In this document: in pieces, positions 50,865 to 63,977 of the stretch
Numbering within the stretch: the stretch's first letter is position 1
Layout of the letters: every line of letters begins with the position of its first letter
Assembly: GCA_014871385.1 (NCBI GenBank)
Contig: CM026424.1
Coordinates: 13,606,892-13,670,891 of the forward strand
From: Ceratodon purpureus
Taxonomy: Eukaryota > Streptophyta > Bryopsida > Pseudoditrichales > Ditrichaceae
Reading direction: 5' to 3'
Length of the DNA stretch: 64,000 nucleotides
Notes under the pieces: generated by a model
What the model was told of the DNA's origin: nothing
The model's database searches: none
What the model saw: the letters and a program-made list of their open reading frames with translations, nothing else
Program-made: the position numbers and the translations under genes

Positions 50865-51789
50865 GTTCGGCACCGAACCTAGGTGTAGACGCTGGAAATA
50901 CTATTGCGTGACCTGGGTAGTACAGTACATTTGGACTCGCAAAAGATTGCATGTTTTACAATACTTATCTATGTTGTGCCATAAGTTGACATAGACATTA
51001 AAGATTTATCGCAAAGCTCATCTAAAGTTAACGGTGGCAATATGTGGCCAAATGGAAACATGTTCACTGAAATTGACTAACAAGAAAAATCCCAATTAGA
51101 AGTCGCTGACCCGTTCGGCACCGAACCACTAGTTAGTGGCTAGAACAGCATAACTTAAAGAAATATAAACTGAACTCAGAAATAAAAATATAGATGGTAT
51201 AGAGTCCTGATCGAATGGTCTAAGTTAAAATATAACTCCTTGTATAAATCTGGTGCGGATAATAGTAACCTCTTTGAATTAATTCGGTACCGGTTAATTC
51301 GTGAGATCAATGACACTGATATTTAACTCAAAGCAGTGAGCCGAGATTGCATGTTCGTTGCCGAACGGGCCATGTAAGCGTGATTTTGTTGAAATGATGT
51401 GTTGCCGTATTTGTATGTTTTCAATAGGTAAATTGGCATAAGAGATATTGCACTAAAAATTTGAGTTTCACTTTTGAAATCTGTTGGGGTTCTAGTTCTC
51501 AGCGCTAGTTTGAAATCTACAATTTAGACAATATTGTTCTTGGAATGAAGAGCCACTTCACTTTTCAACATGGACGGGGTTCTATGGGATGGCCACTTGT
51601 CGTTCTGTAACGAACGACACCATCTTGTCCAATTTGACTGCCACCTAGGAGAGAAATAATATTGGGCTATACACCCTGTTCTGTACAGAACGCCTACGAA
51701 GGCACCAATTTGCGTAAAAATAAAATTATAAAGATTTTCATTAAGATCATAGATTTAATTAAGTGTGAAGGATGGTGTTCGTGCCGAAC
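50865..51789. repeat. Left cluster of 14-bp palindromes
   Basis: Six sites: 50865-50878 GTTCGGCACCGAAC, 51113-51126 GTTCGGCACCGAAC, 51353-51366 GTTCGTTGCCGAAC, 51602-51615 GTTCTGTAACGAAC, 51678-51691 GTTCTGTACAGAAC (perfect palindrome) and 51777-51789 GTTCGTGCCGAAC (one base shorter). The first four starts are 248, 240 and 249 bp apart. Surrounding DNA is AT-rich and non-coding. Confidence 0.9.
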
Positions 51790-53418
51790 GGCTCGAATGG
51801 TCCCTAATTAATAGTCTACATTTTAAGTTTATTTTCAGAAGAAATATATATATACAAAAATTTCCATATCTGTATTCCCCATGTTCGAGTTAGTACACGG
51901 TATAAGGTATGTGTCATATAATATTAGAGAAGAAACTTAAATTATTATATGAACATATGTTTATGTTTATAACACATGAATTAGATATACTAATTATTTT
52001 TATTAAGATATAATATTTATTAAGATATATTTTTATTAAAATATAATATTTTACATTACATTTATTATAAGATTTGACAAAATATTATATTTACTTTGAT
52101 ATACATAAATAATTGTGACAAAGTCATGCATATATATTTAAAACTTAGTGATGGTACAGACAACTTAAACATATAGCATATTAAATATCCACGTATGAGA
52201 TAATTATTCTCTACTAATCATATAAAAAAAGTATATTTAGATAGAAAACATCAACTTATATAAAACACATATAAACTTAGCAACTAATATAATTTGAAAA
52301 CATACAAAGTAATTTTTTAATCAAATTATAAAACTTAAAAACACCAAATATCATCTACATCATAAATATACATATGTCCTCCTATTATAGTGTAATTCTA
52401 AATTGGAAACAATATATAAAAAGATAAAAAATTACTTTATATATTTACATATTTTTTTAGAGATACGTGGATACGTATATAAATATGTATACAAATTTTT
52501 AATATATATATATATATATATATATATATATATATATACATATTTTAAATTAGGAATGAGTCTTTAAAGATATATATAATTATATACAATTATAGAATTT
52601 TATAAACATTTGTTTTTATATATGCTTCTTATAACTATTTGAGTATATAAAAAAATCAATATATATTAAATTATATATAAAAAAAAAATACATTTGAAAT
52701 ATATATACTTATATAACAATATAATATTCAAATATATATATATATATATATGTACATAATATTTTTAAATATTATTTATTGTTTTAAATTTATTTCTGGA
52801 AATGTATGTACGTATTTGTATTTTTTGTTACTTTTAAACATTTAGATAAAATCGTATTAATAAATATGGAATAAATATAAATATTCAACATAATTATATA
52901 TAAGAAATTAAAAAATGATTAAATATTAATATAATGAATGTTAAAATATTAATATGAATTGTTGCATCCATTGAAATAAAATATTACAGAGTCATCTAAC
53001 ATTATTAAATCAATAATGCAATTACATTAAATTTATATTCATATTATAAACTTAATGCATATATATCGTTTTGCATAGTAAGTGTTATAAGAATATGTTG
53101 TAAATGCGTTTGATGAAATTTTTTATATATTATGAATGAAAATTAAAAGACCACAAGTATCGTTCTTGTGTATTCACAAGATTTAATATGTTAATTTAGA
53201 AAAGAGTATTTATAGTTAATTTTATACGTTGTTTGGTTAATTTTAACAAAGATAATATTATGTTTATTAATAACCGAGCCCATTAAATATTTGTATAATA
53301 ACACATTATATATGATGTTATCATAATCACCATCCACAGCCAGGACTACAATCGGAACATCGGAATCGATCGGGCTGTAAGTGAATTGGGTTTCCAAACA
53401 CAGTGAGGTCGAAAGTGT

Positions 53419-63701: not shown

Positions 63702-63977
63702 CGGAATTATCACCTGCATACAAGGCCAACTATGTCATTAACGATCGTTCGGTAACGAACAGGGCAAGACATCAAAATTTGATATGCGCATAATCATGTC
63801 GATATTGGAGTTCGGTACAGAACGATGTAGGTCACGGTAATTAATTCTAAGTAATTGCTGATTTTCTAGTCTTTTAGCAAAATACCGCCATGCTCAGTAA
63901 TGTTTCCCTCTAATTGACATACTTTTCTACAGAAAAGACCTCCGAATTGACCCCAGTTATGGTGTTCTGTACCGAAC
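63548..63977. repeat. Palindromic sites in intron 1 and upstream of the ParB-methylase gene
   Basis: 63548-63561 GTTCGGTACAGAAC lies in intron 1. 63747-63760 GTTCGGTAACGAAC, 63810-63823 GTTCGGTACAGAAC and 63964-63977 GTTCTGTACCGAAC lie upstream of the start codon, presumably in the leader intron or promoter. The series runs to the window edge. Confidence 0.9.

Follow-up and report, generated by a model that had tools for sequence, protein, structure and literature searches.

A stretch of 64,000 nucleotides from the moss Ceratodon purpureus (contig CM026424.1, positions 13,606,892 to 13,670,891; hereafter the window) holds a family of 14-bp palindromes, which an earlier note had described as dispersed through the non-coding DNA of one 13-kb region. 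To what do these palindromes belong, and what might read them? We found that they are built into a family of DNA transposons of 25–28 kb, and that the element carries a two-exon transposase candidate, a gene with ParB-like and N6/N4-methyltransferase domains (gene 2) and a zinc-finger-like gene (gene 3). By analogy with the VANC proteins of Arabidopsis VANDAL transposons, we consider it probable that the palindromes serve as self-recognition sites for a protein encoded by the element, which would counter silencing as VANC does, with proteins unrelated to VANC.

A palindrome was present at all 18 coordinates given in the earlier note, placed as follows.

50865..51790: six palindromes downstream (3') of gene 3, at 50865, 51113, 51353, 51602, 51678 and 51777 (the last a 13-bp variant).
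53419..53432: one palindrome site in the AT-rich spacer.
59280..59561: two palindrome sites in one intron of gene 2, at 59280 and 59548.
61114..61872: four palindrome sites in one intron of gene 2, at 61114, 61346, 61794 and 61859.
63196..63561: palindrome sites in two introns of gene 2, at 63196 and 63548.
63747..63977: palindrome sites upstream of the modelled exons of gene 2, at 63747, 63810 and 63964.

Fifteen of the 18 sites fit the degenerate 14-mer class fully, and two others, at 61114 and 61794, deviate from it by one or two letters. None of the window sites lies within exons of the gene model, in agreement with the claim that they are confined to non-coding DNA, and the last three probably lie in a further intron of gene 2. 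Allowing up to three mismatches, the window holds 40 strand-matches to GTTCGGYACMGAAC, of which 33 are at or after position 50865; when the window was shuffled 100 times the mean was 8.3 (standard deviation 3.3, maximum 16), so that the density is beyond chance, as had been supposed. The first 50 kb, said to be free of sites, yielded a best 52-bp profile score of 7.1, compared with 17–37 for 17 full-length sites, which scored 9.0–33.6 when each was left out of the profile. No RNA family was detected in the window with Rfam at gathering scores.

The region itself proved larger than described, its 13 kb being the window's view of a 24,621-bp element that runs from 47568 to 72188 (window numbering) and ends 8.2 kb past the window's right end. 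Twelve more fully fitting sites lie beyond that edge, and the series runs to 70088 (window numbering). When the window was compared with two clusters of sites elsewhere in the genome, A and B, sharp common ends were observed. Target-site duplications of 9 bp (window), 9 bp (A), 10 bp (B) and 10 bp (a further cluster, C) were detected in all four copies with both ends read, and the ends match each other in inverted orientation at 86–93% over 43 bp in three copies. The complete copies in the window, A, B and C measure 24.6, 26.8, 27.2 and 28.3 kb. The following structural features of the element fall in the window.

47559..47567: left copy of the 9-bp target-site duplication, whose nine bases recur identically past the other end, at 72189-72197 (window numbering).
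47568..47617, + strand: left terminal inverted repeat, defined by a homology boundary common to two other copies and by an inverted match to the other end.
51900..57050: AT-rich spacer (about 19–25% G+C) between convergent genes inside the element, defined by composition and by homology to other copies.

The terminal inverted repeats and target duplications place the sites inside a mobile element, as the earlier note had suggested in speaking of a mobile footprint. Mutator-like elements make target-site duplications of about 8–11 bp, typically 9, and the family looks best placed among them. The ParB-like exon of the window has a 99%-identical copy on C13, indicating that movement or copying was recent. 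A conserved gene neighbourhood shared with Ceratodon chromosome 1, where the homologues M758_1G295400 and M758_1G295500 have adjacent numbers, was considered and is better explained by the element's own structure.

A scan of the window's own assembly (362 Mb in 151 contigs) gave 327 forward and 310 reverse matches to the exact motif, compared with 6 and 3 for the reversed pattern used as a control, perfect palindromes being counted on both strands. The first 100 matches listed, all on C1 and a portion of C2, grouped into 12 clusters, of which we fetched and read seven, along with the sequence that continues the window. Whole or partial element genes were found in all seven and in the window, so that the sites accompany copies of the two local genes elsewhere in the genome. 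The motif is thus part of a transposon, but not, as might have been feared, of a common one unrelated to these genes, which are the transposon's own. Inside the element bounds of these eight stretches we counted 160 fully fitting sites, none of which overlaps the stretches matched by six element-protein queries (51,525 of 176,597 bp), and about 96 kb counted as outside elements contained a single one; in C, D, E, F and G, one or both bounds were set by the fetched stretch, the element end not being in view.

The genes that lie at least partly in the window are these.

49193..50538, + strand: gene 3, a coiled-coil protein in which a RING-like Cys/His cluster was recognized by eye; it has two exons, 49193-50308 and 50428-50538 (the last end approximate).
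57540..64000, - strand: gene 2, with ParB/sulfiredoxin-like and N6/N4-methyltransferase domains, an open spliced frame with GT-AG introns.
Minus strand, the first five exons of gene 2 in the window by coordinate: 57540-57925, 58190-58613, 58715-59059, 59771-60452 and 60550-60992.
Minus strand, the other four exons of gene 2 in the window: 61899-62093, 62179-63104, 63254-63340 and 63629-63719.
66155-66322 (window numbering), - strand: a further 5' exon of gene 2, whose true start is thus outside the window.

Gene 3, whose stop was read from the sequence, is 76%/81% identical to Ceratodon M758_1G295500 in tblastn and also matches M758_1G292000. The spliced protein of gene 2 matches Ceratodon M758_1G295400 (74%) and KC19_7G101700, and its ParB-like exon matches C. 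purpureus proteins with VG and UG locus tags, taken here as the V and U chromosomes. In the AlphaFold model the gene 2 protein is predicted to adopt a ParB-like fold of the ParB/sulfiredoxin N-terminal type, followed by a helical region of mixed confidence; outside the ParB-like domain the model of the whole protein is poor (mean pLDDT 46.5), and that of the zinc-finger-like protein is weak (63.7). Against a cut-off of 26.7 bits for PF01555, the window exon scored 27.5 and the Ceratodon protein 30.4, while a 506-aa spliced piece scored 25.1, just below it. The catalytic motif of N6/N4 methyltransferases is (D/N/S)PP(Y/F/W); in its place, DQPF was found in all six copies read, DTPF in the protein P0067 and DQPY in P0068. 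Mutator-like elements have a MURA-type transposase with a MULE domain and a SWIM finger. The transposase candidate of the moss element consists of two parts, free of stops in the five copies read for part 1 and the three read for part 2, in which D...C(2)H-like and SWIM-like stretches were recognized by eye; the Pfam rows were SWIM, at E 0.52 in the window copy, and unrelated weak ones. The Pfam scans of these proteins gave no nuclease domain.

Two outside origins were also considered and set aside. For a viral one, a single-sequence scan confirmed no viral contig with a relative of the ParB-like exon (30 pattern-matched stretches, 0 confirmed), and no viral contig carried the exact core plus box. 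For a bacterial or phage ancestor, P0068 (without ParB-like part) had weak matches in 237 phage records; among the 15 listed, the best E was 5e-3 and identities were 24–33%.

The place of the sites within the element bears on whether the transposase reads them. In En/Spm and similar elements, subterminal repeats adjoining the ends are bound by the transposase, and the palindromes might likewise be transposase binding sites for transposition or its regulation, given that the element is a transposon and that some sites lie in the intron of the transposase candidate and between divergent genes. However, in all four complete copies the first site is 2.1–2.2 kb from one end and the last 3.3–4.9 kb from the other, leaving the terminal 2.1 kb of one end and at least 3.3 kb of the other without a fully fitting site, and the sites extend through introns of other genes. 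Between the window and A, the synonymous divergence (dS) was 0.06–0.11 for the transposase candidate, compared with 1.1–1.7 for gene 2, whose introns hold many sites, and 0.71 for gene 3. Similarly, over 6.5 kb at its transposase end the window copy is 92–93% identical to A and B, whereas exons of its methyltransferase gene show about 75–78% identity, with high dS. We regard binding by the transposase as unlikely. The unequal dS indicates different histories within one element, as if modules had been exchanged, and from the sequences such exchange between elements seems to have occurred. The ratio of nonsynonymous to synonymous divergence (dN/dS) was 0.03–0.09 for the transposase candidate, 0.03–0.17 for gene 2 and 0.17–0.24 for gene 3, in pairs with computable dS, comparisons between subfamilies being mostly saturated.

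The form of the site was then compared among copies, many sites being homologous between them, so that site counts are not independent. As the earlier note had surmised in proposing a longer degenerate unit, the site exceeds 14 bp: in the subfamily of the window, A and B it is a dyad of about 52 bp, AATT-N15-GTTCGGYACMGAAC-N15-AATT, with AATT boxes 23–26 bp from the dyad. Beyond the core, the window sites carry 0.69, 0.49 and 0.42 bits at positions 23, 25 and 26, counted from the dyad, the 99% level for random placement being 0.41. AATT stands exactly at 23–26 in 12 of 34 half-sites in the window and at any other offset in three at most; across all clusters the corresponding figures are 43 of 320 and nine at most. 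A clear box is one-sided in most sites, and the box regions on the left and right of the same site are alike in 35 of 85 cases, without excess over the 39.1 in shuffled pairs. The box is a feature of the window/A/B subfamily, being invisible in C and D and unclear in the small E and F sets. Spacings between sites include 22, 42, 63/64, 74–78 and 104–108 bp, 42 bp occurring 15 times, and the 24 distinct spacings up to 150 bp are phased at 10.5 bp (R 0.56, permutation P 0.0004). This concentration of phase suggests that neighbouring sites share a face of the helix. We rejected folding of the site as RNA or as a cruciform, since the arms from core to AATT lack complementarity: of 238 symmetric positions 66 could pair, against 62.1 expected. 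The idea of a dimeric protein put forward in the earlier note thus fits the form of the site, with its dyad symmetry and outer boxes; the binding itself we infer.

The sites could also be non-functional, as relics of local duplication and of tandem-repeat growth in introns. The spacings of 42 and 63/64 bp that recur, a number of similarities over 53 bp from site to site, and the true tandem arrays at more distant loci described below are consistent with this. Nevertheless, the cores are alike among sites while most flanks are not alignable, the AATT boxes are equidistant from the dyad on both sides, the TCGG-NN-CCGA core recurs in different repeat units, and none of the sites falls in stretches matched by element proteins. 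These observations make relics improbable, more so than transposase sites.

The motif also varies with the ParB-like protein. The ParB-like exon has at least 146 matches in the genome, 58 at 57–100% identity (near tier) and 88 at 36–51% (far tier), by a manual tally in which pieces of one gene may count twice. Among the matches listed (C1 and the listed part of C2), nine of nine near-tier exons (67–84% identity) are at most 1.5 kb from a listed exact motif, whereas none of nine far-tier loci (38–45%) has one within 27 kb; 0.3% of random positions are within 2 kb of a motif. We read three far-tier loci, L029, L030 and L031. In L029 (946-10000), 108-bp tandem repeats between the exons and 5' of the far-tier ParB-like gene contain 60 TCGGNNCCGA, 59 of them as CTCGGNNCCGAG, against a Markov mean of 0.09. 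A higher-order period of 324 bp is also visible in these repeats. Genome-wide, GCTCGGCACCGAGG gave 253 + 106 matches compared with 1 + 0 for its control. Among the 100 matches listed, 90 lie in two arrays, each with a far-tier ParB-like exon (C2:5361763 and C3:11444067); of the others, eight lie in an array at C2:4.44 Mb and two stand alone, with no listed far-tier exon there. L030 has 19 TCGGNNCCGA in 150-bp repeats upstream of the ParB-like exon (Markov mean 0.05), all printed copies being TCGGCCCCGA. L031, a weak case, has three TCGGATCCGA in a 225-bp repeat that is possibly coding. Two of these loci thus support a TCGG-NN-CCGA core shared with the palindrome of the window, its outer letters being altered, and the third does so weakly.

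Two further observations concern the distribution of these genes. C6 (at least 97.6 Mb) holds 15 of the 58 near-tier matches, seven of them with internal stops; given the Ceratodon V and U matches, it is possibly a sex chromosome in which these elements accumulate. At C2:12705001-12725000 (L025, L026), two ParB-methyltransferase genes of very different divergence are adjacent, one of them just 26–47% identical to the Ceratodon protein.

The comparison of near-tier and far-tier loci suggests that the motif changes in step with the ParB-methyltransferase subfamily, which suits a reader encoded by the element better than a host protein. A transcription or silencing factor of the host might read the sites, for expression of the element or for defence against it: they cluster upstream of and within genes in the manner of an enhancer, and helically phased palindromes would suit a plant transcription factor. 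However, the motif class is rare outside elements, at one site in about 96 kb, and it varies with the ParB-methyltransferase subfamily. We therefore hold a host reader to be about as unlikely as the transposase.

Taken together, the dimer-type sites, the retention of cores, the phasing, the absence from coding sequence and ends, the change in step with the ParB-methyltransferase gene and the low dN/dS of all three genes lead us to propose a reader encoded by the element itself. In the self-recognition reading, a dimeric protein of the element would bind the palindromes cooperatively, mark the element along its length and keep its own copies from being silenced; target and protein would diverge together, so that each subfamily would act on its own copies. 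The binder would probably be the ParB-methyltransferase protein, and otherwise the zinc-finger-like protein. A more specific form, self-marking like that of ParB-parS in a eukaryotic transposon, is possible but doubtful: the protein would load at the dispersed palindromes of its own introns and spacers and spread along the element, and its fused methyltransferase would mark self and counter silencing by host cytosine methylation, with codes private to each subfamily. The methyltransferase could instead modify the palindromes themselves as a self mark of the restriction-modification kind, with no docking role. N6/N4 methyltransferases often have palindromic targets, and the gene has such a domain and low dN/dS. 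Yet a 52-bp dyad far exceeds the length usual for targets of methyltransferases, the enzyme has an altered motif IV, and no nuclease was among the domains that Pfam named in the element's proteins; we consider this very improbable.

Elsewhere in the window, several repeated or open structures were observed.

22168-22731 (+) and 31298-31861 (-): near-identical 187-aa open frames about 9 kb apart, which point to an inverted duplication.
7105-7866 and 29212-29808: a second pair of similar open frames.
19860-21665: a minisatellite of about 1.6 kb, open in several frames (VPQVQE / SPKSRK / PPSPGS units), at a 57% G+C peak.
11864-14023: an open frame of 719 aa that contains many DKSAYMYKGADD repeats and whose C-terminal part resembles a BURP-domain protein.

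How does this element compare with known systems? Like En/Spm, it has many short repeated motifs inside a DNA transposon, which in the moss would be bound by a protein; unlike En/Spm, its terminal 2 kb at least are without sites. It differs from bacterial ParB-parS and KorB in the sequence of the palindrome, in the fused methyltransferase and in its many dispersed sites. ParB proteins bind the parS palindrome through a helix-turn-helix domain and form a CTP clamp; any DNA-binding or CTPase activity of the moss protein would be hypothetical. Fungal DNA transposons carry TET/JBP dioxygenases, thought to aid escape from silencing (Kojima 2025, PMC12730594); these share with the moss element a DNA-modifying enzyme carried by a DNA transposon, but the enzyme and the kingdom are others, and the abstract of that work mentions no dispersed motif. 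Within the part of the open-licence literature covered, we found no Mutator-like element of a moss described as carrying a methyltransferase or as countering silencing, and open-licence papers containing the letters of the motif included, by title, none on mosses or transposons. The role proposed here would be the first for moss ParB-methyltransferase genes, which have homologues bearing Ceratodon V and U locus tags, and the system might offer a new sequence-specific chromatin tool.

The closest parallel is with VANDAL. VANC, encoded by the Mutator-like VANDAL elements, is reported to recognize a short motif that lies in introns, between genes and in terminal non-coding DNA (Hosaka 2017, PMC5735166), and its targets often form tandem repeats, with motifs that differ between related elements (PMC5735166; Sasaki 2023, PMC10398659). 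In the VANDAL system the protein removes methylation and silencing from copies that bear the motif. The moss element resembles VANDAL in being a DNA transposon with its own genes, a motif in non-coding DNA, tandem repeats and a motif specific to the subfamily, and a subfamily-specific short motif in the element's non-coding parts is indeed what we found. In contrast, the moss motif is a long dyad whereas the reported VANC motif is the 9-bp YAGTATTAY, and the candidate proteins are ParB-like/methyltransferase and zinc-finger-like instead of DUF1985/DUF287. The moss element also differs from VANDAL, as described there, in being 25–28 kb long with inverted repeats and at least 2 kb of site-free ends, and its anti-silencing function is so far a proposal. 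Scanned with Pfam, neither the element's proteins nor the homologues in Ceratodon matched DUF1985 or DUF287, and since no VANC domain was found we place the moss system outside the VANC family. To our knowledge, sequence-specific anti-silencing by a transposon is known in detail solely from VANDAL elements. If our proposal is true, the moss element would be a second case, assembled independently from unrelated proteins and with a palindrome code that is specific to the subfamily and can be read, and would suggest that private codes of self-recognition are a wider strategy of large plant transposons.
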